A stretch of DNA of 64,000 nt from Streptomyces mirabilis (GTDB lineage: Bacteria; Actinomycetota; Actinomycetes; Streptomycetales; Streptomycetaceae): positions 8,308,001 to 8,372,000 of the forward strand of contig NZ_JBCJKP010000001.1 in NCBI RefSeq assembly GCF_039503195.1, given 5' to 3'. The position numbers and the translations under genes were made by a program. Shown piece after piece: positions 47,017 through 62,322 of this stretch (position 1 is its first letter; every line of letters begins with the position of its first letter). Below the pieces are notes generated by a model. That model did no database searches and was not told the DNA's origin. It was given only the letters and a program-made list of their open reading frames with translations.

Positions 47017-47083
47017 GGTTGATGTCGGATTCTCGCCAGCCCCGGCCTCGCCGGTGCCCGATGCTTGAGGCATGCGCAATGGG

Positions 47084-48553
47084 ATGCACACCGACATGGA
47101 GCGCTGTGTGCGCGCCGTCCAGTCGAAGGACGCGCGCTTCGACGGATGGTTCTTCACAGCGGTCCTGACCACGCGAATCTACTGCCGGCCGAGCTGCCCC
47201 GTGGTTCCGCCGAAACCCGAGAACATGACGTTCTACCCGAGCGCGGCGGCCTGCCAGCAGGCCGGGTTCCGGGCCTGCAAGCGCTGCCGTCCGGACACCA
47301 GTCCCGGCTCGCCCGAGTGGAACCTGCGAGCCGACCTCGTCGCCCGCGCGATGCGGCTGATCGGCGACGGGGTCGTGGACCGCGAGGGCGTTCCGGGTCT
47401 GGCCGGCCGGCTCGGCTACAGCATCCGCCAGGTCGAGCGGCAGCTGCTGGCCGAGCTGGGCGCGGGACCGCTCGCGCTCGCCCGGGCGCAGCGTGCCCAG
47501 ACCGCCCGGCTGCTCATCGAGACCACCACGCTCCCGATGGCGGAGATCGCCTTCGCGGCCGGCTTCTCCTCCATCCGCACCTTCAACGACACCGTGCGCG
47601 AGGTCTTCGCCCTCGCCCCGAGCGAGCTGCGCGACCGGGTGCCGAAGAAGCGCGCCCCTGCGACACCGGGCGTCCTGAGCCTGCGGCTCCCCTTCCGCGC
47701 CCCGCTCAACCCCGACAACCTCTTCGGCCACCTCGCGGCGACCGCCGTACCCGGTGTCGAGGAGTGGCGCGACGGCGCCTACCGGCGCACCCTGCGCCTG
47801 CCCTACGGCCACGGGATCGTCGGGCTCACCCCGCACGTCGACCACATCGCCTGCCGCCTCACCCTCAGCGACCTGCGCGACCTGCCCGTCGCGATCAGCC
47901 GCTGCCGCCGCATGCTCGACCTGGACGCCGACCCGGTCGCCGTCGACGACCAACTGCGGACGGATCCGGTGCTGGCGCCCCTGGTGGCGAAGGCTCCCGG
48001 CCGCCGGGTGCCGCGCACGGTCGACGAGGCCGAGTTCGCCGTACGGGCCGTCCTGGGCCAGCAGGTCTCCACCGCCGCCGCCCGTACCCACGCGGCCCGC
48101 CTGGTCACCGCGCACGGCGAACCCGTCGAGGACCCCGAGGGCGGCCTCACCCACCTCTTCCCCTCGCCTCAGGCGCTCGCGGCCCTGGACCCGTCGTCGC
48201 TCGCGATGCCGAGCACCCGCCGCACCACGTTCACCACGCTCGTACGCCAACTCGCCGACGGCTCCCTCCACTTGGGAGTGGAGAGCGACTGGGTCGAGGC
48301 CCGCGCCCGCCTCCTCGCCCTCCCCGGCTTCGGCCCCTGGACGGTCGACGTCATCGGCATGCGCGCCCTCGGCGACCCGGATGCCTTCCTCCCCACCGAC
48401 CTCGGAATCCGGCGCGCGGCCCAGGAGCTGGGCCTGCCGTCGACCCCCGCCGCCCTGACGGCGCGCGCGGCGGCGTGGCGCCCGTGGCGGGCGTACGCGG
48501 TCCAGTACCTGTGGGCGACGGACAGCCACCCGATCAACTTCCTCCCCGTATAA
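47084..48553 (+). CDS. alkA: Ada-type AraC activator fused to AlkA 3-methyladenine DNA glycosylase
   Basis: A 489-residue DNA alkylation-repair protein. Residues 1-75 are the Ada zinc/methyl-acceptor domain with cysteines at 34, 38, 65 and 68 (IYCRPSCP and ACKRCRPD); residues 80-190 are an AraC helix-turn-helix; residues 200-489 are AlkA with AVLGQQVSTAAAR, the helix-hairpin-helix LPGFGPWTVDVIG and the catalytic Asp in LPTDLGIRRAA. Methylation of Cys34 should turn it into an activator of this operon. ATG 47084 gives the usual MHTDxERC start; ATG 47072 is possible. Confidence 0.88.
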   Translation: MHTDMERCVRAVQSKDARFDGWFFTAVLTTRIYCRPSCPVVPPKPENMTFYPSAAACQQAGFRACKRCRPDTSPGSPEWNLRADLVARAMRLIGDGVVDREGVPGLAGRLGYSIRQVERQLLAELGAGPLALARAQRAQTARLLIETTTLPMAEIAFAAGFSSIRTFNDTVREVFALAPSELRDRVPKKRAPATPGVLSLRLPFRAPLNPDNLFGHLAATAVPGVEEWRDGAYRRTLRLPYGHGIVGLTPHVDHIACRLTLSDLRDLPVAISRCRRMLDLDADPVAVDDQLRTDPVLAPLVAKAPGRRVPRTVDEAEFAVRAVLGQQVSTAAARTHAARLVTAHGEPVEDPEGGLTHLFPSPQALAALDPSSLAMPSTRRTTFTTLVRQLADGSLHLGVESDWVEARARLLALPGFGPWTVDVIGMRALGDPDAFLPTDLGIRRAAQELGLPSTPAALTARAAAWRPWRAYAVQYLWATDSHPINFLPV

Positions 48554-48603
48554 GCGACTTCAGGCACATGCAGATGGCTTCAAACGACTCGAAGGTACGA
48601 ACT

Positions 48604-49086
48604 GTGAAACAGCACACGGTCATCGACAGCCCGTACGGCCCCCTCACCCTCGTCGCCGACGACGGTGTCCTGTGCGGCCTCTACATGGTCGGCCAACGCC
48701 ACCGCCCGCCGGAGGAGACCTTCGGCGAACGCGACGACACGCCCTTCGGCGAAGTCACCGACCAGCTGAAGGCGTATTTCGAGGGCGAGTTGAAGGAGTT
48801 CACCCTCGAACTGCGGATGTCCGGCACCCTCTTCCAGCGCAGCGTCTGGGATCAGCTGCGCCGGATCCCCTACGGCGAGACCCGCTCGTACGGCGAACTG
48901 GCCGAAGCCCTGGGCAACGCGGGCGCCTCCCGCGCGGTCGGCCTCGCCAACGGCAAGAACCCCATCGGCATCATCGTGCCCTGCCACCGCGTGGTCGGCG
49001 CGAACGGAAGCCTCACCGGATACGGCGGCGGCCTGGACCGCAAGCAGCGCCTGCTCGACTTCGAGAGCGGCACGGCACTCTTCTAG
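48604..49086 (+). CDS. ogt: methylated-DNA-protein cysteine methyltransferase (Ogt)
   Basis: A 160-residue suicide repair protein that removes methyl groups from O6-methylguanine. The acceptor motif IVPCHRVVG, the ASRAVGLANGKNPIGI DNA-binding block and the helix RSVWDQLRRIPYGETRSYGE are intact. GTG 48604 gives the typical VKQHTVIDSPYGPLTL start, with GAAGG 8 bases upstream; ATG 48568 is a longer in-frame option. It lies 50 bases after the AlkA gene and is most likely in the same adaptive-response operon. Confidence 0.9.
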   Translation: MKQHTVIDSPYGPLTLVADDGVLCGLYMVGQRHRPPEETFGERDDTPFGEVTDQLKAYFEGELKEFTLELRMSGTLFQRSVWDQLRRIPYGETRSYGELAEALGNAGASRAVGLANGKNPIGIIVPCHRVVGANGSLTGYGGGLDRKQRLLDFESGTALF

Positions 49087-49143
49087 CCCACTTCTCCAGC
49101 TCTGTTCGCCGCTGGCTCTCTGTGCCTCCAGCTCTCTGCGCCT

Positions 49144-49463
49144 CTAACTCTCTTCGCCCAGGGCGTGCAGCAGCTTCGGCAGGGCGATCCCGATCGGCTC
49201 CCGTACGACCTCGTCGGCCCGGTCGTCGTACGGCGTCGGCTCGGCGTTGTCGATGATCAGCCGGGCTCCGCGATCGGCGGCGACACCGGCGAGCCCGGCG
49301 GCGGGCTGCACCTGCAGACTGCTCCCGACGGCGATGAACACCTGGCACGCTTGGTGATGGCGACCGCCTCGCTGAGGACCACAGGGTCGAGCCGCTCGCC
49401 GAACATCACGGTCGCCGGCTTGAGGATGCCACCGCACTCCAGGCACAGCGGATCGTCCTCGCC
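49144..49463 (-). pseudogene. SIR2 family deacylase fragment with a frameshift
   Basis: The C-terminal 105 residues of a SIR2 protein remain. From 49463 the frame reads CLECGGILKPATVMFGERLD, then shifts by one base near 49355 into CQVFIAVGSSLQVQPAAGLA and ends at TAG 49146-49144. It closely matches the same part of the intact SIR2 gene at 50587-51324 (for example EPTPYDDRADEV versus EPTPYDEIADEV). The N-terminal domain is missing. It looks like a decayed paralogue or a partial duplication around the two genes that lie between the copies. Confidence 0.75.
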
Positions 49464-49503
49464 GCCATATGGGGAGGTGGACGCAGCGATGGCGCCAGAT
49501 GGC

Positions 49504-49815
49504 CTAACCGCCCGTCACCCATCGGATCGCTGCGATCACACCCAACAGCACGGCGGGGCCCACCCACCACCAGCCCATGATCCGTCGTACCGACGGCAGC
49601 AGCCACAGCACTGCCGCCGCACCGGCAGCCCCGATGGTGAGGACGCACGAGAGAACGATGCCGGCATACGCGTCGTCGTCCCAGGGCCCGGACGGACGGA
49701 CGGTCAGTGCCGTCCAGCAGAAGTACGCGGCGACAAGGGTGAGCAGGATCAGTGGAACGCCGAGGACCAGGCGCAGGCAGCCGCGGTCGTCGTCCACGGG
49801 GGAAGGGCTGGTCAT
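49504..49815 (-). CDS. small membrane protein of unknown function
   Basis: A 103-residue protein with three predicted helices: LVLGVPLILLTLVAAYFCW, then IVLSCVLTIGAAGAAAVLWL, then GWWWVGPAVLLGVIAAI, after an acidic N-terminus. I do not recognise the family. ATG 49815 overlaps the stop of the lysozyme-like gene (TGATG), so the two are probably coupled; a helper or immunity role for the neighbour is possible but unsupported. Confidence 0.6.
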   Translation of the reverse strand: MTSPSPVDDDRGCLRLVLGVPLILLTLVAAYFCWTALTVRPSGPWDDDAYAGIVLSCVLTIGAAGAAAVLWLLPSVRRIMGWWWVGPAVLLGVIAAIRWVTGG

Positions 49816-50498
49816 CAGCGCAGTGCGTTCCTTGCCTCGTCCAGATGGTTCGTAAAGCCACGCCCGTAGGCCTGGGCGTCGTCGGTCTGCCAGTACGGGC
49901 CACCGTTGTAACGCGCGGCGAGCTCCTGATACTGGGCCGGCGTCATCTCCTCCGCAGGCACGGTGGCGAACTCGCTCTCCGCCTTGAGTTGGGCCAGGTA
50001 CTCCGAGGCGATGAAGATGTTCTGCGCAGGGTCCTGGAGAGAATCCTCCACCATGCTGCGCTGCTGGTCGGTGAGGTGGTCGGGGTCGTAGCCGAGGACC
50101 TCGGCGCCGCGTCGCACCTGGATGGCAATGGGCCCCATGGACGTGTTGTCGGGATCGCCGCCGAGACGCCAGGGGAGGCTCTCGGGGGCGATCGGACTGA
50201 GTGGGGAGTCGGCCTGTTCGCGGAGGGTGTCGGTGATGTCGTCCAGGATGCCTGGCTGTCCGCCGATCTCCTGCCAGGCGATACCGGCGACCATGTCCGG
50301 CGGGAGCCCCGAGTTCTGTGCCGCCGCCTTGATGATGTCCTTGTTCGCCGCGATCCAGTCGGCGCGCTCCTGGGCGTTGGCGGCGCGGTTGCCGGAGCGG
50401 ATTCTTGAGCGCCGGGGTCCGCCGCCCCTACGCCGAAGCACCCGGCCGAGCAAGCGGTGCGGCTGGGTCCGGTGGTCGGTTTGGACTGACTTCCCCAC
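49815..50498 (-). CDS. lysozyme/transglycosylase-like domain protein, N-terminus uncertain
   Basis: The C-terminal 185 residues show a lysozyme-like (SLT/transglycosylase) pattern: IKAAAQNSGLPPDMVAGIAW then QEIGG with a candidate catalytic Glu, SMGPIAIQVRRGAEVLGY in place of GLMQI, DPAQNIFIASEYLAQL, and YQELAARYNGGPYW in place of AAYNAG. The N-terminal 40 residues are Arg rich and lack a signal peptide. GTG 50498 is only the best available start; the gene may be truncated where it meets the SIR2 duplication. Such domains occur at the ends of larger secreted or polymorphic-toxin-type proteins. Confidence 0.55.
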   Translation of the reverse strand: MGKSVQTDHRTQPHRLLGRVLRRRGGGPRRSRIRSGNRAANAQERADWIAANKDIIKAAAQNSGLPPDMVAGIAWQEIGGQPGILDDITDTLREQADSPLSPIAPESLPWRLGGDPDNTSMGPIAIQVRRGAEVLGYDPDHLTDQQRSMVEDSLQDPAQNIFIASEYLAQLKAESEFATVPAEEMTPAQYQELAARYNGGPYWQTDDAQAYGRGFTNHLDEARNALR

Positions 50499-50586
50499 CT
50501 GCCGCCTGCCTGCGGCCGAACTGTGCCCCTCGCGTCGATACCTTGGGACCGGTGCCCTGGCTGGGCTTCCCACTCTATTTCCTAGC

Positions 50587-51324
50587 CTAGTGGGTGTCTT
50601 CGGTTCGAAGCTTGTGCAAGAGCCCGGGCAGGGCGGTGCCGATCGGTTCGCGGATGACCTCGTCGGCGATCTCGTCGTACGGGGTCGGTTCGGCGTTGAC
50701 GATGACGAGCCGGGCTCCGTGGTCGGCGGCGACGCCTGCGAGGCCGGCGGCGGGCTGGACCTGAAGGCTGCTGCCGACGGCGATGAAGACCTGGGAGGCC
50801 TTGGCGATGGCGGCGGCCTCGCCGAGGACGACGGGGTCGAGGCGTTCACCGAAGAGCACGGTCGCCGATTTCAGGATGCCGCCGCACTTCAGGCACGGCG
50901 GGTCCTCCTCGCCGGCTTCGACGCGGGCGAGGGCGTCCCGCATGGGTGTCTTGTCGTGGCATGCGGTGCACACGACGGTCCGCGCGGTGCCGTGGACTTC
51001 GAGGACCTTGCGGGCGGGCATTCCGGCGAGCTGGTGCAGGCCGTCGACGTTTTGGGTGATCACGCGCACGGGCACTCCGGACTTCTCGAGCTCGGCCACG
51101 GCCAGGTGTGCGGCGTTGGGCTCGGCCTGGAGTGTCCGGTTCTTCCGCCGCATCTGCCACGCCCGGCGTCTGATCTCGGGATCGCCCATGTAGTACTCGT
51201 ACGTCACGAGCTTCTCGGCCTCGGGATCCCGCCGCCACAGCCCGTTCGGACCGCGATAATCAGGGATTCCTGAATCGGTCGAGATCCCTGCCCCACTGAG
51301 GATGGCGACGAGTGGCCTGTTCAT
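50587..51324 (-). CDS. SIR2 family NAD-dependent protein deacylase
   Basis: A 245-residue bacterial sirtuin. The NAD motif GAGISTDSGIPDYRG, the ITQNVDGLHQLAG block, the catalytic His in EVHGTA, two CxxC zinc pairs (CTAC and CLKC) and FGERLD are present. It removes acyl groups from lysines using NAD. ATG 51324 is clear. A broken copy of the C-terminal half lies at 49144-49463. Confidence 0.92.
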   Translation of the reverse strand: MNRPLVAILSGAGISTDSGIPDYRGPNGLWRRDPEAEKLVTYEYYMGDPEIRRRAWQMRRKNRTLQAEPNAAHLAVAELEKSGVPVRVITQNVDGLHQLAGMPARKVLEVHGTARTVVCTACHDKTPMRDALARVEAGEEDPPCLKCGGILKSATVLFGERLDPVVLGEAAAIAKASQVFIAVGSSLQVQPAAGLAGVAADHGARLVIVNAEPTPYDEIADEVIREPIGTALPGLLHKLRTEDTH

Positions 51325-51568
51325 GGGCCGAGAGTAGGACGCTTGCCTGCTCGGAGCGAGCGGATATCGGGGCGTGGTCCTCGCCGACCCGTTGTGTTGG
51401 TTGGCCGACATCCCCATCGGCTTGCCTGCCACCCGGAGGAGGCGTTCCCTACCGCGGGGACGCGGGACCGAATGACGGGGATCACCAAGCCGCCTTCACA
51501 GCCTTTTCCCTGGAGTGGCCCCCGCTGAGCCGCAGGGGCGCTGCTCCAGTGTTCGAGGCAGGATCGGA

Positions 51569-51589
51569 GGCCCGGCGCGATGCCGGGCC
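51569..51589. terminator. hairpin downstream of the haloperoxidase-like gene
   Basis: GGCCCGGC (51569-51576), loop GCGAT, GCCGGGCC (51582-51589), a perfect 8-base GC-rich stem 17 bases past the end of the minus-strand gene at 51607. Rho-independent terminators in Streptomyces often lack a U-tract, as here. The rest of 51325-51606 contains no gene that I can support. Confidence 0.55.
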
Positions 51590-51606
51590 CTCTTCGGCTC
51601 TGTGGT

Positions 51607-52998
51607 TCAGTCGCTGTCGTCGCACCTGGGCTCGGCGCGCCTGTCCTGCTCAGCCGTTCGTGTCGGCAGGGACGGCTGGGTGCCGTCCTCGGCGACCGGC
51701 TGGAAGTAGTGGTCCAGCGCCCAGGCGGCCACATGGGTGCCGGCCCGACAGCCGGCTACGTCCGCGGTGCGGGAGTGGACGCCGCCCCACACACGGGCGT
51801 CGGCGACGTCCCGGTTGAGGACGTCGGCGGACCCGTAGAACCGCGTGGTGCCGGTGACCTCGGAGGGGACGTAGAGGTCGATGTGGGAGGTGCCGAGGAC
51901 GCCGGTCAAGGCGCGTGCCACGGCAGCGGCGACGGTCGTATGGCCGGCGACGTAGTCCGGGTGCGGTGGGGTGGGGAGCAGCGGCTCCCAGGCCGGGTCA
52001 GCCGTCGTCGCGGGGTTGCCGTCGGTGTCCGCGAGGCGGATGGCGGTGATCGGCCGCCAGGTGCCGTAGTGGAGCTTGGCGTCCCATGCCGTGACGACGG
52101 CATCGGTCGCCGACGCGTTCACCGCGGCGAACAGCCGGGCCGTCTCGGCGATGCCGAGCCGGTGCCGGGCGGCGTGGTCTCGTACGGCTGTCTGGACCTG
52201 TTCGACCAGGTTGCCGCTGAAGAAGAGGGCGGTCTCGGTCTGCTGCGCGCTCCTGCCCGAGCCGGTCTTCGCGCCCATGGTCTTCACCTCCTGGACATCC
52301 TCGGCGTAGCGGGCCGAGGAGAGGGCGGGTGGTCCCTCGGGGCGGAACTGCTGCGGGGAGGCGAGCAGGAGGGGGCGGAGCCTGGCGAGCCAGGTGTCGA
52401 TGAAGGGCTGGAACGCGGGCGGGGTGGGCCGCCAGACCCCCGGTGCCGGGGAAGCGGTGAAAGGAACGTCCGCGAACCTTCCGTCCCCTTCACGGAGTTC
52501 GATGATGCGAGCGGCGGCGCGCTTTCCGTAGTCGACGCCCCGGTCTCTGGCCTGACCGGCCTGAAGAGCGGCGAGCGAGTCCGCGTAGGCGGTGTCGAGC
52601 CGCACCTTGAAGGCGGGGAAGTAGGTGAGCAGCACGTCGTGGGCCGCAGTGGCGGCGGCCGCCGCGGAGGATGCCTTGGCCGGACCGCGCTCGCGCCATT
52701 TGTACAGGGCGTAGCGGCCTTCGATCCCCACCACGGCGTTGTACACGGCGACGGAGACGAACCCCTCCCAGATCACCGCCTGCCCGGAGGGACGTGGGCC
52801 AAGGCTGGTCTTGATCGTGTCGGTGGCGATGGCGTTCCACTCGCGGACCACGGCTGCCGGGTCCGCCGCGGTCCGGGTGTCCGCGTCGGGGGGACTTGTC
52901 GCGGCGGTGAGCGTCACGAGGGCGATGGCCGCGACGGCGCAGATGAATCCCCGGACACGTGAACGCGGAGGAACGGGAAGAGGGGGCTCTTGTTGCAC
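51607..52998 (-). CDS. exported vanadium-dependent haloperoxidase/PAP2-fold protein
   Basis: A 463-residue protein of the bacterial vanadium haloperoxidase-like family. A signal peptide precedes AATSPPDAD. Phosphate/vanadate-site motifs are KLHYGTWRPITAIR, HPDYVAGHTT and VWGGVHSRTADVAG, equivalent to the KxxxxxxRP, PSGH and SRxxxxxH motifs. Whether it oxidises halides or hydrolyses phosphate cannot be read from sequence. GTG 52998 is chosen because GGAGG lies 5 bases upstream; a TTG at 53055 would extend it without a ribosome site. Confidence 0.83.
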   Translation of the reverse strand: MQQEPPLPVPPRSRVRGFICAVAAIALVTLTAATSPPDADTRTAADPAAVVREWNAIATDTIKTSLGPRPSGQAVIWEGFVSVAVYNAVVGIEGRYALYKWRERGPAKASSAAAAATAAHDVLLTYFPAFKVRLDTAYADSLAALQAGQARDRGVDYGKRAAARIIELREGDGRFADVPFTASPAPGVWRPTPPAFQPFIDTWLARLRPLLLASPQQFRPEGPPALSSARYAEDVQEVKTMGAKTGSGRSAQQTETALFFSGNLVEQVQTAVRDHAARHRLGIAETARLFAAVNASATDAVVTAWDAKLHYGTWRPITAIRLADTDGNPATTADPAWEPLLPTPPHPDYVAGHTTVAAAVARALTGVLGTSHIDLYVPSEVTGTTRFYGSADVLNRDVADARVWGGVHSRTADVAGCRAGTHVAAWALDHYFQPVAEDGTQPSLPTRTAEQDRRAEPRCDDSD

Positions 52999-53154
52999 AG
53001 CGTCCTCCAGAGAGTTGAGTGCCCAAGGCTTAGCAACGGCCCACTGCGCGAGCAAGACAACTCGCCGCGAACCGGACAGGCCCGGGGCGCCCTCGCGCGC
53101 ACCGGCCCGTGTCCGGTGGGATCCGAGCGTGATCGGCCAACACCCCGCTCGGCC

Positions 53155-53397
53155 TTCAGGTACGTCTCGAGGCCGCCACCGGTCGGACGGCTTGACCTTG
53201 ACGCATGATCACCGAGGTCGCTGTTCCCGATCCCGATCGGGGCAGGTGCTGGTCCGCAACCTGTTCCTGTCGCTTGATCCAGGCATGCTCATGCCTATCG
53301 CGGGCGAGTCCGGTCTGCCGATGCCCCGCCATGAGGTCGGCGAGGTGATGCACGGCGATGCCATCGGCGAAGTGGTCGCCCCGCGCGGCCAGTCCAC
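53155..53397 (+). pseudogene. NADP-dependent medium-chain oxidoreductase, N-terminal relic
   Basis: Fragments in three frames together match the N-terminus of CurA-like NADP-dependent oxidoreductases: FRYVSRPPPVGRL, then ITEVAVPDPD, then GQVLVRNLFLSLDPGMLM and EVGEVMHGDAIGEVV. The reading breaks twice by frameshift and ends abruptly near 53400, before the cofactor-binding domain. It is a decayed remnant just downstream of the conflict-system operon. Confidence 0.5.
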
Positions 53398-53427
53398 CGA
53401 TCAGCATGCGCGTGGGGGCCGACCGGG

Positions 53428-56400
53428 TCAGGGGAAGATCGGGCGGGGGCCCAACAGGAGGGCGGCGAGGCGCAGATACGCCTTGTAGGCCTCGGGGGTC
53501 AGCCAGGAGAGTTCGACCGTGCTGCCCATGGTGAGGTGGCCGTCGCGGGGGACCATCACGACGCCGCGGCAGCGGGAGCTCAGGCCGCGGATACTGGCGG
53601 CGTCGAGCGTCCAGCCGGCCGCGGGGCGGCTGTGGTTGAGGACGACGACGGCCTCGCGGACCAGGTCCGGCAGGTCGAGGGTGACAAGCCGGTCCATGGC
53701 CTGCTGCGCCTGGGTCAGACCGGCGGGGTCGGCCCGCGAGACGATGACCACGCGGTCGGCCGCCCTGAGCACCGTGGGCATGAACTTGTCCGAGTCGACC
53801 AGGGTGAGGTCGAAGTAGTCCCGGGTGGTGCGGGTCACCCGGTGGAAGTCGTAGTCCGTGAACTGGCCGACCGACGCGATGCGCGAGACGGAGTCGTTGG
53901 CGAGAACCTGGAGCCCCGAGCGGTGCGGCGACAGAAACAGCTGGAGATCCTCGAAGTGCCGCACCTCGTGCAGCGACTCGGCCAGGTCCGACAGGCTGGC
54001 CAGGGTGTTGCGGAAGACCCGCCCGCCGATCCGGACCTGGCTGCCCGTGTGCCGGTCGGCGTCGATGGCGAGCACCCGCTCCTGCCGCTGGTCGGCCAGT
54101 ACGGCCCCCAGCACCATCGTGGTCGTGGTGCAGCCGACCCCGTCCTTGACGCCCACGAGCGCGATCCGCAGGGGCTCGGGCAAGGGGGTGCGGATGGTGC
54201 GCATCCACTGCTCGTGGTCGTCCTCCTCGTCGCTCGACGTCTCCGGCTCGGCGACGGGGCCGTCGTCGTCCCCGCCCGTGCCGCCCTCCACGTCCTCCCA
54301 CTCCACCCCGCCCGGCAGCAGCGCCCCGAAGGCGTCCGCCACCTCGCGGGCGGTCGGCCGCCCCGCGGGTTCGGGCTCGACACAGCGCAGCAGCAACTCC
54401 GCGATGGTTTCGTCGAGTTGCGCGAGCTGTGGACTTCTGCGCAGCGTGTCGTTCTCGTACCAGCGCCACGCCCGGCCGGTCGCGGCCTGCAACAGGATGG
54501 AACCGAGGGCGTACACGTCGCCCGCCGTGATCCGGGACTCGCCCCAGTACGTCACCTCGGGCGCCCGGTAGGGGGAGTTGGCCGGCGTGGACGGCGTCGA
54601 CGCGCTCCACGCGCCGTCGATGCGCGCCGACGTCCAGCCGATGAGGTGCAGCGTCGACTCGGTGACCAGCACGGTGCCCGGGGTCAGCGCGCCGTGCACG
54701 ATGCCCTTGTGGTGGCAGCGGGTCAGCGCCCGCGCCAGGTTCCAGCCCAGCCAGGTGAACAGCGGGGTCCCGGGCAGCGCCCCGGCCGCGTCGAGCACGG
54801 CACGCAGGGTGGGCGCGGGCGGACCACCGCTCAGCGTGTCCAGACGCAGCGCCAGCCACGGCGTGGGGCCCTCCAGGTCGCTGCGCACCACGGCGGGCGC
54901 GTACATCCCGTCCATTCGGCGCAGCGCCCGGCGTTCCACGTCGAGCAACTCCCGCGCCACGGGAGAGTCGAAGGAGTGCGACACCCGTAGCAGCACCCGC
55001 TGCCCGTCCTCGTCCTCCCCGATGTACGCGGTGGGCTTGCCGCCCGTGCCGTCGCGTTGCAGCAGCGAGTACGGGCCCAGGGTGTGCAGGTCCTGCAGCC
55101 GCAGCGGCAGCCACGACGGGGCCGCCTCCAGGCCCGACGGCAGCCGCACCTCCTCGTACTCGGTGGTGCGCGGCGGCGTCGGCGCCATCGGTTTGGCACC
55201 CAGGTGGGTGAGGAGACGGTCCTCCAGCCAGGCGAACGGCCGGGTCCCGGGCAGGAGTTCACCCGTCCCGGCGGGATGGGCGAGCCAGGCGGGGAAGTCG
55301 GGGGAGCGGCCCACCAGGGTGCGCAGCCGCGCGGTGACCGCCCGGGTGGTGCGCAGCAGATCGATCGGGGACGCGGTGTCGAGCAGGATCTCCTGGGCCT
55401 CCCCGGCGAAACCGAACCGGCGGTGCTGGGGCGGCAGCCGCTCGTCGACCGGCTCCACCTGACGCATCAGACCGCCCAGGAACACCTCGGCCAGATGCGC
55501 GGTGTCGGCCCGCCACGGCACGGCCGCCTGCACCAGCCGCATCACGGGCACCGTGAGCGGGGACACCGCCGCGAGATGAGCGGCCAGCCGGTAGGCCCCC
55601 GGGGACGCGGCGTCCCGGAACCTGAGCACGGCGTCCGCCGCGCCACCGCCCCGGGTGTCGGCCCCGGCCCGTGGCGCCTTTGCCTGCAGCGGCGCCAGCA
55701 GGGGCAGCTCCGCGCTGCCGCCCGGCGAGGCCACCAGCCGCGCCCACGCGGCGACCGCCGGGGGATACGGCTCCAGTACGGGGACGGGGACCCCGGGGAA
55801 CTCGTCACCGAGCCCCGGCGGCAGCAACGGGTCGGCGACCTCCCAGGTGTCGTTCGCCGCGCCGCGCCGCCGGGTCGTCACCAGCCACGGCTCCGAGCGG
55901 ATGCCCGACCCGTCCCACATGTGGGAGGGCAGCGCGTGCATGATCGCCGTCGGCCCCTGGTGCGCCCAGCGTTCCAGCGCCGCGTGCAGTCGCCCGTCCC
56001 GCCAGCAGGCGCCGACGCCGTCGCTGATCACCAGCACCAGCGTGCCGCCCGAGGGGTCGGCGACCGACGCGGGGGAGAGCAGCGGCGCGTGTGGGTCGAA
56101 GGGGCGGGAGCGCAGCAGCGGTGCCCCCGCCGACCGGGTGTCCAGGCCGTGCACACGGATGTCGCGGAAGGCGCCGAGGCGTTCCAGCAGGGCGCGCAGT
56201 TCCATCGCCAGCCGCCGCCACAGCAGCATCGAGATGCCGTCGTCGATGAGCAGGGTGAGGTCGAGCCAGCGCTGCCGGGCGGGGCGGGTCACCACATCGG
56301 GCAGTCCCGTCTCGGCCATGGCCGCCGCCGTCGCCTCCTCGTCGAACTCCCGCTTCAACGGCCCCGGCTGGGGCTGTTTCAGCAGCCGGAGCGCACGGCT

Positions 56401-56898
56401 GAGGCGCAGTTCGTCCGACCCGAGCGCCTTCTCCTCGGGGACCCGTACGGGCAGCGCGCCCTCGCCGGGCGCGCCACGCAGCCCCGGCGCGGCGAGGTCC
56501 GCGAACTCGGGTGCGCTGCGCGCCGCCGCCGCCGCGTGCAGCGCGCCCAGCAGCTGGGCGGGAGGCGGCGGCTGGGTCGGCGTGGCGGGCGCGGGGGAGT
56601 CGAGCTCGGCCGGGGCGGGGCCGGCCGTGGAGCGCTCGGCGTCTCCCGCGCCGGCGCCCGGTGGCGGCACGGCGTCCGCGGTCAGCGCGCTCGCGAGCGG
56701 CGCCGTGGCTCCCGGGGGAAGCCGCGTCGCCAGCCACAGGGTGTCGAGCAGTTCATGGATCGACAGCTCGTGACCGGCCAGCCGGCCGAGTTTGCTCAAC
56801 GGGGGCAGGATCGGCGGGGCACCCGTGACGTGCGAGCCGCCGGATTCGCCACCGGCGTCACGCGGGTTCCTCCCGTCGCCCCCGTCGCCCCCGCGCAC
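53428..56898 (-). CDS. SAV_2336-type protein: vWA-like domain + pseudokinase + MinD-like NTPase
   Basis: A 1156-residue three-part protein. Residues 1-200 are Pro/Ala rich; 205-400 form a vWA-like domain (LDLTLLIDDGISM near 213-225 as a MIDAS-like site, LVLVISDGVGACWRDG near 287-302). Residues 608-865 are kinase-like but degenerate: LLRV in place of VAxK, IVHGALTPGTVLV in place of HRDLKPxN, and IGWTSA in place of DFG. Residues 910-1150 are MinD/ParA-like, with VGVKDGVGCTTTT where the P-loop Lys is Cys, and LVDSDKFMP. GTG 56898 lies just after the MoxR stop; longer frames overlap MoxR. It probably senses a signal and works with MoxR through the vWA domain (inference). Confidence 0.83.
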   Translation of the reverse strand: MRGGDGGDGRNPRDAGGESGGSHVTGAPPILPPLSKLGRLAGHELSIHELLDTLWLATRLPPGATAPLASALTADAVPPPGAGAGDAERSTAGPAPAELDSPAPATPTQPPPPAQLLGALHAAAAARSAPEFADLAAPGLRGAPGEGALPVRVPEEKALGSDELRLSRALRLLKQPQPGPLKREFDEEATAAAMAETGLPDVVTRPARQRWLDLTLLIDDGISMLLWRRLAMELRALLERLGAFRDIRVHGLDTRSAGAPLLRSRPFDPHAPLLSPASVADPSGGTLVLVISDGVGACWRDGRLHAALERWAHQGPTAIMHALPSHMWDGSGIRSEPWLVTTRRRGAANDTWEVADPLLPPGLGDEFPGVPVPVLEPYPPAVAAWARLVASPGGSAELPLLAPLQAKAPRAGADTRGGGAADAVLRFRDAASPGAYRLAAHLAAVSPLTVPVMRLVQAAVPWRADTAHLAEVFLGGLMRQVEPVDERLPPQHRRFGFAGEAQEILLDTASPIDLLRTTRAVTARLRTLVGRSPDFPAWLAHPAGTGELLPGTRPFAWLEDRLLTHLGAKPMAPTPPRTTEYEEVRLPSGLEAAPSWLPLRLQDLHTLGPYSLLQRDGTGGKPTAYIGEDEDGQRVLLRVSHSFDSPVARELLDVERRALRRMDGMYAPAVVRSDLEGPTPWLALRLDTLSGGPPAPTLRAVLDAAGALPGTPLFTWLGWNLARALTRCHHKGIVHGALTPGTVLVTESTLHLIGWTSARIDGAWSASTPSTPANSPYRAPEVTYWGESRITAGDVYALGSILLQAATGRAWRWYENDTLRRSPQLAQLDETIAELLLRCVEPEPAGRPTAREVADAFGALLPGGVEWEDVEGGTGGDDDGPVAEPETSSDEEDDHEQWMRTIRTPLPEPLRIALVGVKDGVGCTTTTMVLGAVLADQRQERVLAIDADRHTGSQVRIGGRVFRNTLASLSDLAESLHEVRHFEDLQLFLSPHRSGLQVLANDSVSRIASVGQFTDYDFHRVTRTTRDYFDLTLVDSDKFMPTVLRAADRVVIVSRADPAGLTQAQQAMDRLVTLDLPDLVREAVVVLNHSRPAAGWTLDAASIRGLSSRCRGVVMVPRDGHLTMGSTVELSWLTPEAYKAYLRLAALLLGPRPIFP

Positions 56899-56899
56899 G

Positions 56900-57856
56900 C
56901 TAGACCATCCCGCCCAGGCGGTGGAGTACGGCGTCCAGCAGCCCTTCGGCGTCCAGATCGACTCCGCCCTTGCGCAGGAACACGGCGTTGAGCAGCTGGT
57001 CGGTGGCGAGTTCGCCCGGTGCCCGGCGGTTGAGGAAGGCGTGCAGCAGGTCGTCCACGTCGGACAGCGCGTCCTCACCGAGATGCGCGGCGACGATGTC
57101 CCGCAGCCGGGCCTCGTCCGGGTCCGGCAGATCGAGCCGTACGCAGCGGCGCATGAAGGCGGGCGGGAAGTCCCGTTCGCCGTTGCTGGTGATCACCACG
57201 ACCGGGAACTCCCGGCAGCGCACCACCCCGCGCGTCACGGTGACCCGCTCGCCGCCCGAGCCATGGGTCAGCACCGGCACCTCGGACTGGGTCTCCGGCA
57301 GCCGGGACAGCTCGGGTATCTCGAACTCGCCCTCCTCGAACACGGTCAGCAGATCGTTCGGGAGGTCGACGTCACCCTTGTCGAGCTCGTCCACGAGCAG
57401 CAGCCGCGGCCGGTCGCGCGGCACCAGGGCGGTACCGAGCGGTCCGAGCCGCACATAGGTGCCGATGTCGGGCTCGGGGTCCCCGCGCTCCTGGCGCAGA
57501 TGCGTCTCACGCAGCCTGCCGATCGCGTCGTAGCCGTACAGGGCGTCCTTGAGGACCGAGCGGCTGTTGACGGGCCACTGGAGCACCGGTCCGAGGGACA
57601 GCTCGTGCGCGACGGCGTGCGCCAGCGAGGACTTGCCGGTGCCGGGGTGCCCGGTGACGAGCAGCGGGCGACGCAGATGGAGGGCGGCGCTGACCACGTC
57701 CGCCTCCGTGCGCCCGATCAGATACGGACGGTGCCGCGGGCGGCCGCCCGGCCCGTCGCCGAACTGCCGCCAGGGCGGCGCCTCGGGGAACTCCACCTCA
57801 CGGGCCACGCGGTCACCGCGGAACAGTCGCCACCCGTCCGGTGTCTGCTGGGTCAT
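56900..57856 (-). CDS. MoxR-type AAA+ ATPase
   Basis: A 318-residue AAA+ ATPase. Walker A GHPGTGKSS is at residues 69-77, Walker B LLLVDELDKGD near 152-162, and sensor/arginine regions VVVITSNGERDFPPAFMRRC near 230-250. MoxR ATPases act as chaperones that remodel vWA-containing partners, and here the vWA-like protein is encoded by the next gene. ATG 57856 overlaps the trypsin-like gene stop (ATGA). A longer frame to 58111 is a shadow. Confidence 0.87.
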   Translation of the reverse strand: MTQQTPDGWRLFRGDRVAREVEFPEAPPWRQFGDGPGGRPRHRPYLIGRTEADVVSAALHLRRPLLVTGHPGTGKSSLAHAVAHELSLGPVLQWPVNSRSVLKDALYGYDAIGRLRETHLRQERGDPEPDIGTYVRLGPLGTALVPRDRPRLLLVDELDKGDVDLPNDLLTVFEEGEFEIPELSRLPETQSEVPVLTHGSGGERVTVTRGVVRCREFPVVVITSNGERDFPPAFMRRCVRLDLPDPDEARLRDIVAAHLGEDALSDVDDLLHAFLNRRAPGELATDQLLNAVFLRKGGVDLDAEGLLDAVLHRLGGMV

Positions 57857-60072
57857 CCTGTCCGCTCCGTTCCTTCCGAGGGGTCGGCGAGCTGGAGTTC
57901 GTCGGGCAGCGGCAGCTCGATGTCCTCCCACACCAGGGCGGGACGCGCGGGCACCACCCGGTCCGCGTAGGCGCGGACCCTGAAGTGCCGTACGCGCTCC
58001 GGGAGTCCGTCCACGGGACCGTGCGGTGCCAGGGCGTCGAGCGGGGCGCAGTCGTCCGGACCGGGAGCTGCCCGGTCCCAGAGCACGACCGGCACCCCCA
58101 TCACCAGGCACACGGGCAGCAACTCGCCGCGGTGCTCGGTGCTTCCGTGCACAAGGACGCGCGCGGTGTCCCGATGGGTTGTCTTCAGCAGCCCGATGAG
58201 TCCCGCCCTGCCGCCGATCCTGTGGTCCGCGAGGAGGATGTCGCTCTGGTGACGGGAGTTCCAGCGTCGCTTGAGATCGGCGGGTCCGGTGCGCGAGCGC
58301 CGCCGGATCTTCGGGCAGCGCAGCACGAGGTGGAAGTCCTCACCGAGTCGCGCGGAGATGTACTCCTCGGCGCCCGCCCCGTCCCACTCGTCGAGCGCGA
58401 GCTCCAGCGCGTCCGGCGGCACCGACACGGCGACCAGCGCGACCCCGTCCCCGGCGCCCTCCGCGCCCCAGGCCACCTCCCGGATCAGCCGGGCGATCTC
58501 CCGTCCGGTGCGCGGCCGGTCGGACTCCGAGGCGGCACGCGCCGGGGTGCCGTCGGGGCGCAGCCGCCACACCGAGCAGCGGTAGTGGTCCGCCGGGTCC
58601 TTGGTGTACCGGTCCAGTTCCACCAGGACCCGTACACCGGCCGGCGCGGACCGCCGGGACCAGCGGTCCGCGTCACCGCGCCGCTCCTGCAGCGCCGAGG
58701 GGTGAATGCCCAGGCGGGCGGCGACCCGGGCGCTCCACTCCCGCAGCGCCTGCCGGGCCAGATCGCCGGACGTCTCCGCCGCCACGTACTCGACGACCCG
58801 CAGCAGCGCGGGCAGCCGGGGCGACTCGTCGGGCACGGGCGACCCGTCCCCGTACCAGCCCTCCAGTTCGTGGACGACCGCGGGCACGGCCGACGGTGCC
58901 AGGCGGGCCGCCTGCAGCGAGCGCGGCAGGTCCACGTAGGGCAGCGCGGCGGTCGCGGCCCGCGGCAGCAGGCCCGGATCGTGCTCGGTGAGATGCTCCA
59001 GCTTGACCACCAGCGCCCGGTGTTCGGCCACCGACAGCAGCCGCGCGGCCTCCGTCAGCCGGCCCAGCGCGAGCAGCCGGTCGAGCTCGGCACGTCCGCG
59101 CGGATCGTCCGCCACCTTGGGCGCGAGCGACTCGGCGAGCGTGGGCAGCGCCCGCTCCGTGCCGCTGAGCAGATGGGCGAGCTCCTCCACGGTCGGCGCG
59201 CTCCCGTCGCCCGGGGCCCGCAGCGTGAGCTGGGCGGCGAGCACGGTGGCGTGGTCGGCGCGCGCCCGCGGGTCGCCCAGTAGGCTGTGCAGCGGGCCGA
59301 CCATCATGTCGCGCACCGACTCGGCCTCGGCGAGGGTCGCGGCCGACCGCTCCCGGCCGCCGTTCACATGCTCGGGTGCCGCCCCGACCCGGGCCAGCTC
59401 CCGCAGGACCGACTGCCAGCCGAGCCCCCAGCTGCGCCGCAGCGTGTGCTGGGCCGAGAACGCCCCGTCGGGCGCGGTGATCCGTCCCACGACCAGGCCG
59501 ACGGCCGCCCGGTCGGTCACCGACCAGAGGGGCCCGCCGCTGTAGCCCTCGTCGACCGCCGCGCCGGACAACTGTCCGTCGAGATAGCAGATCCGGCCGT
59601 CGTACGCCCCCACCCGCGCGTCGGCGTACGAGAACGGCTGCCCGCCGCCGTACCAGGCCCGTACCTGCTGGCCGCGCTCCATCTCCAGCCAGCGCAGCGG
59701 GCTCACGGGCGGGGGAGGCGCCTCGTCGAGTTCGAGGACGGCCAGATCGCCGTCCCACTCCAGGGAGCCGTCGGCGACCGGGCCGTACTGCGGGGACCGC
59801 GGCGGTATCCAGGCGACCAGCCGGGCCTGGTGCAGATCCGCGGCGGACAGCACCGGGAAGGACACGTCGAGGGTGACCTCCCCCGGGTTGTGCGGGCTGA
59901 GGCTGCGCAGCCCGAGCGCCAGGTTGATGACATGTGCGCAGGTCAGCAGCCTGCGGCCGGAGAGGTAGACACCCGCCCCGGCGGTCCGGCCGCGATCGCT
60001 GGACAGGACGCGCACCAGCGCGCCGCGGGCGTCGCCGGACGACGGGTCGTCCGGCGATCCGAACCAGGTCAC
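57853..60072 (-). CDS. trypsin-like serine protease with VMAP-type C-terminal region
   Basis: A 739-residue protein. Residues 1-205 are a trypsin-fold protease with the full triad: His47 in LLTCAHVIN, Asp109 in WDGDLAVLEL and Ser178 in EGYSGGPLW. There is no signal peptide, so it is cytoplasmic. Residues 210-480 are helical; the C-terminal part (RVLVELDRYTKDPADHYRC to WEDIELPLPDELQL) resembles the VMAP-C domain of vWA-MoxR-associated proteins. GTG 60072 overlaps the Trypco1 gene. It is the likely effector, released or activated when the MoxR/vWA partners respond to a trigger (inference from the family). Confidence 0.85.
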   Translation of the reverse strand: MTWFGSPDDPSSGDARGALVRVLSSDRGRTAGAGVYLSGRRLLTCAHVINLALGLRSLSPHNPGEVTLDVSFPVLSAADLHQARLVAWIPPRSPQYGPVADGSLEWDGDLAVLELDEAPPPPVSPLRWLEMERGQQVRAWYGGGQPFSYADARVGAYDGRICYLDGQLSGAAVDEGYSGGPLWSVTDRAAVGLVVGRITAPDGAFSAQHTLRRSWGLGWQSVLRELARVGAAPEHVNGGRERSAATLAEAESVRDMMVGPLHSLLGDPRARADHATVLAAQLTLRAPGDGSAPTVEELAHLLSGTERALPTLAESLAPKVADDPRGRAELDRLLALGRLTEAARLLSVAEHRALVVKLEHLTEHDPGLLPRAATAALPYVDLPRSLQAARLAPSAVPAVVHELEGWYGDGSPVPDESPRLPALLRVVEYVAAETSGDLARQALREWSARVAARLGIHPSALQERRGDADRWSRRSAPAGVRVLVELDRYTKDPADHYRCSVWRLRPDGTPARAASESDRPRTGREIARLIREVAWGAEGAGDGVALVAVSVPPDALELALDEWDGAGAEEYISARLGEDFHLVLRCPKIRRRSRTGPADLKRRWNSRHQSDILLADHRIGGRAGLIGLLKTTHRDTARVLVHGSTEHRGELLPVCLVMGVPVVLWDRAAPGPDDCAPLDALAPHGPVDGLPERVRHFRVRAYADRVVPARPALVWEDIELPLPDELQLADPSEGTERTG

Positions 60073-60455
60073 GGCTCCGTCCGGCGGGGCAGCTGCCAGG
60101 TCGCCGAAATGGTCATGCTGGCCTGGCCGTTGGCCCCGACGATGCCGATCTTCAGGTCCTGTCCGATCTGGATGCCGAAGTCGACGGAGATCTCGTGCGG
60201 TGGGTCGGGTATCCCGCGGATCGCGTCGTGCACCTGCTGCAGTACAGGCCCCAGCGGGCTCAGCACACTGCGCAGACCGTCCGTCGCCAGCGACGCGACC
60301 CGCGCGCCACGCCCGACCGGGACCACCCCGGAAATGCCGCCCGGCAGATCGGCGTCGACGGCCGGGGCCGCCGACGCCTCCCCCGCGGCCGCGAGTTCGA
60401 GCCGGACGTGGGCCCCGTCGTCGAGGGCGAACTCCATGTAGTCGTAGTGCGGCAC
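60069..60455 (-). CDS. Trypco1 (CU044_2847) family protein
   Basis: A 128-residue protein with a beta-rich N-terminus (EFALDDGAHVRLELA) and the typical end EISVDFGIQIGQDLKIGIVG followed by ASMTISATWQL. This matches trypsin-co-occurring domain 1, which is nearly always encoded beside cytoplasmic trypsin-like proteases and may inhibit or guide them. GTG 60455 is used; ATG 60437 is an in-frame alternative, and neither has a clear ribosome site. It is the first gene of the four-gene operon. Confidence 0.82.
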   Translation of the reverse strand: MPHYDYMEFALDDGAHVRLELAAAGEASAAPAVDADLPGGISGVVPVGRGARVASLATDGLRSVLSPLGPVLQQVHDAIRGIPDPPHEISVDFGIQIGQDLKIGIVGANGQASMTISATWQLPRRTEP

Positions 60456-60525
60456 ACGGGCATTGTGCCGATCAATGCCCCGTGAAGGTAGTGAAGTTGA
60501 GGAATCCGCCGTAGCCAATGCGCGA
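60456..60525. promoter_or_regulatory. leader of the conflict-system operon with an inverted repeat
   Basis: The 70 bases between the NUDIX stop and the Trypco1 start contain GGGCAT (60458-60463) and ATGCCC (60475-60480) separated by 11 bases, a possible operator or small hairpin. The gap is short, so the promoter may lie within or before the NUDIX gene. No convincing -10/-35 pair was found. Confidence 0.35.
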
Positions 60526-61017
60526 CTAGCCCACCCGGTGGCCGTTCTCCAGCTCCGCGGTTCCGCCGCCCTCCGTCAGCACGTCCAGCGCGGCGAGGAC
60601 CCGGCGGCCGAGTGCGCCCGGCAGGTACTCGGCCAGCTCCCCCCGCGGCACCAGCCGCCACGACAGCAGCTCCTCCTCCTGCAGCCGGATCGTCTTGAGC
60701 TCCCGCTCGCCGAGGACTCCGCCGTCGTACAGGTAGGCGACCAGCGGGGGTCGCGCCGTCCCGTGCACCCAGTCGACCGCGAGCAGCGGACCGAGTTCGA
60801 GGTCGAGCCCGATCTCCTCGGCTGTCTCGCGGCGCGCGCCCTGGCGCGGAGTCTCCCCGTCGTCCGACTCGACGGTGCCACCCGGAAGGGCCCAGCCCTC
60901 ACGGTAGTTCGGCTCGACGAGCAGCACCCGGCCGTCACCGTCGCGGAAGAGCGCGGCCGCACCGGCGAGGACACGGGGGAGGCCCGCGATGTACGTGGCG
61001 AAGTCTGGAGAGGTCAT
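60526..61017 (-). CDS. NUDIX hydrolase
   Basis: A 163-residue NUDIX hydrolase. The NUDIX box runs from GGTVESDDGETPRQGA to RRETAEEIGLD with all Glu ligands. It hydrolyses a nucleoside diphosphate linked to another group; ADP-ribose is one candidate because an ADP-ribosylglycohydrolase gene lies next to it, but that is inference. ATG 61017 is preceded by GGAGAGG. It reads into the Trypco1 operon 70 bases away and may share its transcript. Confidence 0.87.
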   Translation of the reverse strand: MTSPDFATYIAGLPRVLAGAAALFRDGDGRVLLVEPNYREGWALPGGTVESDDGETPRQGARRETAEEIGLDLELGPLLAVDWVHGTARPPLVAYLYDGGVLGERELKTIRLQEEELLSWRLVPRGELAEYLPGALGRRVLAALDVLTEGGGTAELENGHRVG

Positions 61018-61182
61018 CCCCGAAGCGTAACGAGCCTGCGCGGCCCCTCCTCGGACGTGCTGTCCGCCTCGGCGAAGCACTGCGCGCCCCCTGGGAGGCC
61101 GTCGCCGCGGCGGCGCGAGGCTGGTCCTGCCGACGACGGGGATCACGACGCACGTGTTCGAGACGGCCCCGACATTCGTCGG

Positions 61183-62322
61183 CTAGGACAGGCCCTGGAC
61201 GTCGGTCCCGGCACCGGACGGCCCCTCGGCCTCGGCTTCGGCCTCCGTCTCCGCGTCCGTCACCATCAGCGCGAGCGTCCGCGCGGCCAGCTCACTGATC
61301 CGTACGCCGTCGAAGCCGAACACCGCGCTGCGTACGGTGTCCTCCAGCGGGTCCTTCCACTGCGCGGGAATGGCCTCGGCCCCGCACAGGACCCCGGCCA
61401 CCGAGCCCGCCGTCGCGCCGTTCGAGTCGGTGTCCAGGCCGCCGCGGACGGTCAGCGTGATGGTCCGGGTGAAGTCGCCGTCGCCGTAGAGCAGCCCGGC
61501 CGTGAGGACGGCGGCGTTCGGGATCGTGTGGATCCAGCCGAGCCCGGCGGTCTCCTCGGACACCGTGGTGAGCGTGTCCTCCCAGGTCATCCGGGTCTCG
61601 TGAAGCGTGAGCACCCGGCGTACGGTGCGGGCGAGGCGGCTGCTCGCGGGGATGACGGTCAGCGCCGTGTCCAGTGCGTGGCGGACCGTGGGCGCGGTGA
61701 ACGCGGCCGAGACGAGCGCCGCCGCCCACATCGCCCCGTACACGCCGTTGCCGGTGTGGGACAGCACGGCGTCCCGACGCGCGAGGGAGGCCGCCCGGCG
61801 CGGCGCACCCGGGTTGGTCCAGCCGTGGACATCGGCGCGGATCAGGGCGCCGATCCACTCCTGGTAGGGGTTGTCGTACGTCGCCGTCAGCGGCGGTTTG
61901 ATGCCGTTGGCGAGGTTGCGGTACGCGGCCCGCTCCGCCGTGAACGTCTGCAGATACGGCAGCCGCAGCAGCCACAGGTCGCCGACCTGTTCGGTGCTGA
62001 AACCGAAACCGTGTGTCTCCAGCAGGTGCAGGCCCAGGATCGCGTAGTCGACGTCGTCGTCACGGCAGCTGCCGTGGATACGGCCGCGCACGCATTGCCG
62101 CCACTCGGGCCGCAGCTCGAACTCGCCGGCGTCACCGTCGGTGGCGGGCTCGGGAAGATAGTCGGTGAGCGGCAGGGCGGCGGCCTGTCGCAGATAGCGG
62201 TCGATACGGTCCCGCGTCCAGTGGTCGCCCTGCTCGACCGGCTTGCCGAGCATGTTGCCCGCGATCCGGCCCAGCCAGCCCCCGAGAACGCGGTCCGCGA
62301 GTTCGGTGCCCACAGGGGTCAT
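61183..62322 (-). CDS. ADP-ribosylglycohydrolase family protein
   Basis: A 379-residue member of the ADP-ribosylglycohydrolase (DraG/ARH3) superfamily. N-terminal GGWLGRIAGNMLGKPVEQ, then CRDDDVDYAILGLHLLE, and the metal-binding GGLDTDSNGATAGSVAGVL near residue 300 are intact. The family removes ADP-ribose from proteins or small molecules. The C-terminus carries an acidic tail with repeated Glu-Ala. It is divergent from the glycerate kinase gene, with a 145-base gap, and 165 bases precede the NUDIX gene. Confidence 0.85.
   Translation of the reverse strand: MTPVGTELADRVLGGWLGRIAGNMLGKPVEQGDHWTRDRIDRYLRQAAALPLTDYLPEPATDGDAGEFELRPEWRQCVRGRIHGSCRDDDVDYAILGLHLLETHGFGFSTEQVGDLWLLRLPYLQTFTAERAAYRNLANGIKPPLTATYDNPYQEWIGALIRADVHGWTNPGAPRRAASLARRDAVLSHTGNGVYGAMWAAALVSAAFTAPTVRHALDTALTVIPASSRLARTVRRVLTLHETRMTWEDTLTTVSEETAGLGWIHTIPNAAVLTAGLLYGDGDFTRTITLTVRGGLDTDSNGATAGSVAGVLCGAEAIPAQWKDPLEDTVRSAVFGFDGVRISELAARTLALMVTDAETEAEAEAEGPSGAGTDVQGLS

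Follow-up and report, generated by a model that had tools for sequence, protein, structure and literature searches.

A trypsin-type VMAP ternary cassette in Streptomyces mirabilis with an intact protease triad, probable pseudoenzymes on its vWA protein and a VMAP-C domain that may be a dead CHAT/separase-like fold

VMAP ternary systems are predicted immune-type systems in which a VMAP protein is encoded together with a MoxR ATPase and a vWA protein (Kaur et al. 2020, PMC7159879). Their MoxR-vWA subsystem 1 consists of the small protein Trypco1, a trypsin-VMAP-C protein, a MoxR ATPase with two N-terminal motifs and a vWA protein that ends in kinase and MinD/ParA domains. We analyzed a four-gene cassette with the same components in a 64,000-nt stretch (the window) of the 11.1 Mb genome of Streptomyces mirabilis (C1:8308001-8372000). 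The order of the genes and the apparently dead kinase and MinD domains are likewise shared, and no architectural difference from that description was found, making the cassette a further member of this group. The fusion of a vWA region to a pseudokinase and a MinD-like domain, which a preliminary description of this DNA had presented as newly seen, was thus already in print. Literature searches turned up no experimental test of a predicted VMAP immune-type system, and the fold proposed below for VMAP-C is the sole part of our reading for which they returned no precedent.

Two other described systems bear comparison. The VMAP loci of Thiohalocapsa PB-PSB1 (PNAS 2024, PMC10907252) share the trypsin VMAP, the MoxR ATPase and a vWA protein whose C-terminal region serves recognition (diversity-generating retroelement [DGR] 7), with Trypco1 present at related loci. 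In those loci, C-type lectin domains made hypervariable by the DGR sit on the vWA protein, whereas that of the window carries the kinase and MinD-like domains; no diversity-generating element was seen among ten flanking open frames scanned, and no dedicated search was made. The TPR-CHAT protein Csx29 of Craspase (PMC9729208) is partnered by Cas7-11 rather than MoxR-vWA and has a His-Cys dyad that VMAP-C lacks; the active protease in VMAP is the appended trypsin, and we found no sequence-level match to Csx29. Two candidate assignments were rejected: MADS (mad6 kinase, mad8/MadB ATPase), to which the kinase and AAA matches were weak and far under the curated cut-offs (MAD6, 64 of 460 bits; MadB, 58.7 of 475), and the beta-propeller MoxR ternary system (bpMoxR, 15.2 bits against a cut-off of 27).

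All four operon genes were confirmed on the minus strand, running from 60455 to 53428 (Table 1). Trypco1 starts with GTG at 60455, as read from the sequence, and the MoxR and vWA genes with ATG at 57856 and GTG at 56898, both checked; the respective stop codons end at 60069, 56900 and 53428. The genes had been described as overlapping head to tail. They are all present in that span, and the 3' ends of Trypco1 and of the protease-VMAP gene each reach 4 bp into the following gene (ATGA at the second junction), but a 1-bp gap separates the MoxR stop from the vWA start. Because VMAP-C, Trypco1, the MoxR motifs, the SAV_2336/vWA region and the VMAP-MoxR-vWA gene order expected of a ternary system (Kaur et al. 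2020) occur together, membership in the trypsin-type VMAP ternary systems is near certain from sequence comparison. The preliminary assignment to a MoxR-vWA-VMAP conflict system with a trypsin effector therefore held, as did the VMAP-like C-terminus of the protease (PF20028, 113 bits against a cut-off of 27). Profiles for Trypco1, the SAV_2336 N-terminal region, the kinase and the ParA domain all matched (PF19493, NF041121, Pkinase and AAA_31). The last two barely exceed their cut-offs, and both are backed by PDB profile searches (StkP and other kinases from 3.8e-13; ParA/FleN/MinD from 3.9e-8).

Table 1. Features of the VMAP cassette and of the adjoining conserved genes (window coordinates)
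Feature	Position	Strand	Evidence
ADP-ribosylglycohydrolase gene, conserved row	61183..62322	-	PF03747; synteny
NUDIX gene, conserved row upstream of operon	60526..61146	-	PF00293; synteny
Trypco1, 128 aa, first operon gene, small trypsin-associated protein	60069..60455	-	PF19493, E 1.1e-18; NF041216 (CU044_2847 family), 1.8e-14
VMAP protein, 739 aa: N-terminal trypsin-like protease, middle region, C-terminal VMAP-C	57853..60072	-	PF13365, 8.5e-10; PF20028, 2.9e-32; both over cut-off
Trypsin_2 domain, triad His47/Asp109/Ser178	59494..59979	-	PF13365, over cut-off
VMAP-C domain, VMAP residues 495-717	57922..58590	-	PF20028, 2.9e-32; AlphaFold2 model resembles CHAT/separase caspase-like proteases
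MoxR-type AAA+ ATPase, 318 aa, with WxhapG and PsWRxa N-terminal motifs of VMAP systems	56900..57856	-	AAA_5, 1.6e-5
vWA protein, 1156 aa: N-terminal extension, vWA, kinase-like, MinD-like	53428..56898	-	NF041121 (SAV_2336_NTERM), 8.8e-116; Pkinase, 3.4e-8; AAA_31, 2.7e-6
SAV_2336 N-terminal/vWA region with metal-site residues	55318..56757	-	NF041121; D183, S187, D257, G258 of alignment A2
Pseudokinase domain: VAIK Lys to Arg, HRD to HGA, DFG to GWT	54313..55125	-	Sequence alignment
MinD/ParA-like domain, P-loop Lys to Cys, probably inactive	53440..54210	-	PDB ParA/FleN/MinD profile matches from 3.9e-8
SIR2 gene, conserved row downstream of operon	50587..51432	-	PF02146; synteny

To place the cassette among its relatives, 36 further VMAP neighbourhoods (34 from other genomes and two from the same genome, with three weak places left out) were annotated with profiles built from the window proteins, giving 37 loci with the window (loci are numbered L and genomes G). 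A trypsin-type VMAP is encoded in 33 (32 by the window-built profile and L051 by Pfam), and each of these has the Trypco gene first, followed by VMAP, MoxR and vWA (the vWA gene of L069 is cut by a contig end); the four genes are thus neighbours in related genomes, as had been anticipated. The Trypco partner is Trypco1 in 32 of them and Trypco2 in L051 (PF19631, 5.6e-22), in line with the mutually exclusive use of the two described by Kaur et al. (2020), the search for Trypco2 having covered L051. Directly upstream of the L051 operon lies a type I restriction HsdM gene (L051:3770-5704).

The catalytic triad is retained throughout. The serine named in the preliminary description, Ser178, is that of GYSGGP, and all three residues are kept in 32 of 32 aligned rows and were seen by eye in L051. 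In five members of a larger set (120 listed of 126 homologues found, plus the window protein, 121 in total), the N-terminal domain is missing or incomplete; in the remaining 116, His and Asp are kept by alignment and the G-x-S-G serine is always present (88 by alignment, 28 by motif). Listed homologues that bear an organism name are mostly from Streptomyces. Elsewhere the module in front of VMAP-C varies, being a caspase in L071, EAD2 in L072 and L073 and nothing recognised in L059, and no Trypco1 was detected at these four loci with the window-built profile. The N-terminus of VMAP is therefore swappable, which would suit an output module or the adaptor of one.

The MoxR ATPase site is also intact in sequence. 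Its N-terminal motifs read WRLFRG and PPWRQF in the window, and their W, F, G and P, W, R residues are conserved in 35-36 of the 37 rows, among which is one gapped fragment; the Walker A Lys is found in every row but the fragment (36 of 37), the Walker B Asp and Glu in 36 and 35, and the paired Arg in 36. At L072:8985-14988, one of the other VMAP systems of the same genome, the VMAP (EAD2) and vWA genes are nearly adjacent, with no MoxR gene between them by the window-built profile.

Enzymatic residues of the vWA protein have fared differently from those of the protease. No Pfam vWA profile matches the window protein. Among 33 relatives of its N-terminal region, VWA_CoxE matches 15 (best 2.3e-4); the four metal-site residues listed in Table 1 are invariant in 33 of 33 aligned rows. 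The N-terminal extension has ELLDxLW with an invariant D, in a spacing unlike the [D/E]xxx[D/E]xxxa printed by Kaur et al. (2020), and among the S, E and R residues expected in the C-terminal extension, E435 is invariant and R401 nearly so in A2, while the S was not identified. Across 23 vWA-borne kinase copies, the VAIK Lys is absent (Arg in 21), the catalytic-loop Lys is likewise never present, and the HRD Asp and DFG Asp remain in nine and seven; the alpha-C Glu is kept in all 23. Among 17 MinD-like copies, the P-loop Lys occurs in one (L056), the signature Lys in four and both together in none, with two later Asp positions kept in 16 and 17. The window kinase is thus a pseudokinase by its residues, as it had been labelled, and the MinD-like domain is probably dead as well; the C-terminal array of often inactive enzymes described by Kaur et al. 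(2020) is represented here by two domains with broken active sites. Comparison of the window with L038 gave a pN of 0.17 and a pS of 0.37 for the kinase and 0.13 and 0.40 for the MinD domain (pN and pS, proportions of nonsynonymous and synonymous differences), and the closest relatives likewise have pN below pS, which suggests that both domains are retained for a role that does not need the lost catalysis. In the vWA proteins of L057 and L058, two tandem pseudokinases precede the MinD-like domain.

The C-terminus of the vWA protein differs among the 34 loci with a complete vWA gene (the window and L038-L071 without L069): kinase and MinD are both present in 17, the kinase without MinD in four and neither in 13. 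In place of MinD we found a weak FtsK match and TPR (L041), TIR with a weak ATPase match and TPR (L042) or TPR (L051); kinase-free forms include a weak STAND-like NTPase (L045) and a wHTH-BTAD-NB-ARC-TPR protein (L060). No further Pfam domain was found in the L043 and L059 proteins (seven proteins were scanned in all).

The C-terminal domain of the VMAP protein may have a caspase-like (CHAT/separase) fold that has lost its active site. In the AlphaFold2 model, the likeness to the CHAT/separase fold spans most of the domain; Kaur et al. (2020) were unable to assign one to VMAP-C. The His-Cys catalytic dyad was not found: the window has H-G at the expected Cys site, and no His is conserved over 46 rows. 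Each of two adjacent columns has Cys in 12 of the 46 rows. At alignment columns 152-153, roughly where the CHAT nucleophile would lie, VMAP-C domains of the L060-L070 clade have adjacent cysteines without a matching conserved histidine.

In the most far-reaching reading of these data, VMAP-C is an active-site-less CHAT/separase-type fold, the VMAP protein is a TPR-CHAT-like allosteric body akin in design to Csx29 and separase that fires an appended effector (trypsin, caspase or adaptor) on the command of MoxR-vWA, and the dead kinase and MinD-like domains are integrated decoys against intruders that attack host kinases or ParA/MinD; as a whole, we place it slightly short of evenly poised. In the mechanism that we tentatively prefer, the vWA protein would dock on the MoxR ring and keep VMAP off, and the pseudokinase and MinD-like pair would bind an intruder, or a host partner altered by it, as bait or scaffold. 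MoxR and vWA would then act as an ATP-driven remodelling pair, a role that Kaur et al. (PMC7159879) state for known MoxR-vWA pairs. Remodelling would pass through VMAP-C, the putative dead switch, to the N-terminal trypsin, which would cut host or phage proteins in the cytoplasm, with Trypco1 as its constant partner, adaptor or restraint. The direction of signalling, with the vWA C-terminus as input and the protease as output, is the uncertain step of this mechanism, and we consider it evenly poised. The same direction is put forward as an alternative in PMC10907252, so the earlier proposal that the large protein senses, MoxR remodels and the protease is unleashed is one of two in print; our data lean to it without demonstrating it. 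Protease as output is favoured, though not decided, because the vWA-borne enzymes appear dead, the triad is kept, the VMAP N-terminus is swappable and the link between Trypco and trypsin is constant.

Several observations weigh against this mechanism. CHAT homology of VMAP-C was not recovered at the sequence level, the hhalign probability of 0.2 against 20 Streptomyces CHAT entries (one empty) being that of unrelated controls, and Foldseek's own E-values for the structural likeness are weak. The MinD-like domain at L056:7796-8569 is the sole one of the 17 with a P-loop lysine, so that not every copy is surely dead. At larger distance (window against L044 and L047), the kinase and MinD parts share 28-36 percent identity and MoxR 67-72 percent; the two domains then change at least as quickly as the rest, a pattern equally compatible with bait, sensor or relaxed constraint. 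The C-terminal architecture is also stable in these loci, whereas rapid exchange would be expected of a sensor or effector in an arms race: when the three C-terminal labels are mapped onto a MoxR tree of 35 rows, three changes are needed (minimum two; shuffles average 14.2), so the kinase-MinD form is stably inherited in our sample, in contrast to the report of Kaur et al. (PMC7159879) that vWA C-terminal domains often differ even among close relatives. Matches to defence genes near VMAP loci are not clearly above those of other regions. Finally, Kaur et al. (PMC7159879) read the same architecture in the opposite direction.

In their model, recognition of the invader falls to the variable middle region of VMAP, and the threshold is set by MoxR-vWA; trypsin then cuts the vWA protein, and the freed pseudokinase-MinD part interferes with signalling or cell division as a dominant-negative effector. 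Of ten segments, the one that links kinase and MinD is the least conserved in all five comparisons, at 25-41 percent identity, which would suit a flexible linker open to cleavage, and dead domains with living counterparts are able to act as dominant negatives. However, a dead pseudokinase-MinD pair has no enzymatic activity that needs restraint, and the VMAP-MoxR-vWA loci without trypsin noted above imply that cleavage by trypsin is not general, although a caspase could stand in for it. We consider this model unlikely, if still a serious competitor.

We think it improbable that the cassette instead serves filamentous actinobacteria as a proteostasis switch in stress or development, built from the same parts (a MoxR-vWA chaperone pair and a regulated protease) and unrelated to immunity. 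MoxR-vWA pairs such as RavA-ViaA and NorQ-NorD do serve maturation and stress elsewhere, and the stable inheritance within clades and the lack of clear defence-gene enrichment would suit such a switch. Against it, the cassette is patchy, since, of 150 genomes of the genus searched with the protease-VMAP (this genome being one of the 150), 33 had a match with an E-value of 1e-10 or lower; its site is empty in most relatives compared (see below); the same genome holds three VMAP systems in total, with EAD2 replacing trypsin in the other two; and VMAP-type systems have been reported near type III CRISPR loci (PMC10910872). A decaying or inert cassette is very improbable, since the active-site residues lost in two domains are missing from nearly all relatives examined, the four frames are open and closely spaced, and the triad and Walker motifs are intact.

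The cassette interrupts a row of genes at 47072-62322 (ADP-ribosylglycohydrolase, NUDIX, SIR2 and, beyond SIR2 on the opposite strand, Ada-AlkA) that is conserved in Streptomyces relatives and broken by differing inserts in several. Among 14 relatives picked by a good ADP-ribosylglycohydrolase match, NUDIX adjoins SIR2 with no operon in ten (L075-L078, L080-L082, L085-L087), and two have other inserts: about 13 kb in L074, where the genes scanned include metabolic ones, and about 6.6 kb in L079, where a 926-residue NB-ARC-TPR (STAND-type) protein (L079:7274-10054) fills the place of the VMAP operon. The other two (L083, L084) had no NUDIX match. Genomes G007, G009, G003 and G015 of this comparison carry a VMAP protease elsewhere. 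Related VMAP operons lie in the same slot (L039), between ADP-ribosylglycohydrolase and NUDIX (L041), just past AlkA (L057, L058) or near the row in another order (L040); the remaining loci lack these neighbours. The empty sites and recurrent insertions indicate that the cassette is accessory and that cassettes of this kind recur in this row, which has an ADP-ribose/NAD theme and is a candidate hotspot for insertions. The gap that separates the operon from SIR2 holds a gene (51607-53055) that matches VCPO/PAP2 weakly. This gene is missing from the equivalent gap of L039, and copies with 87 percent identity occur elsewhere in G016 and G020.

With this operon, a predicted immune-type system gains a further example. 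The asymmetry between an intact protease triad and broken vWA-borne enzymes is a concrete argument in the dispute over which end senses and which end kills. A link between VMAP-C and CHAT/separase, if it holds, would connect VMAP systems both with an RNA-guided protease that is well studied and with eukaryotic separase, and would suggest where the regulatory switch lies, so that the sensing and killing ends become testable by point mutations.

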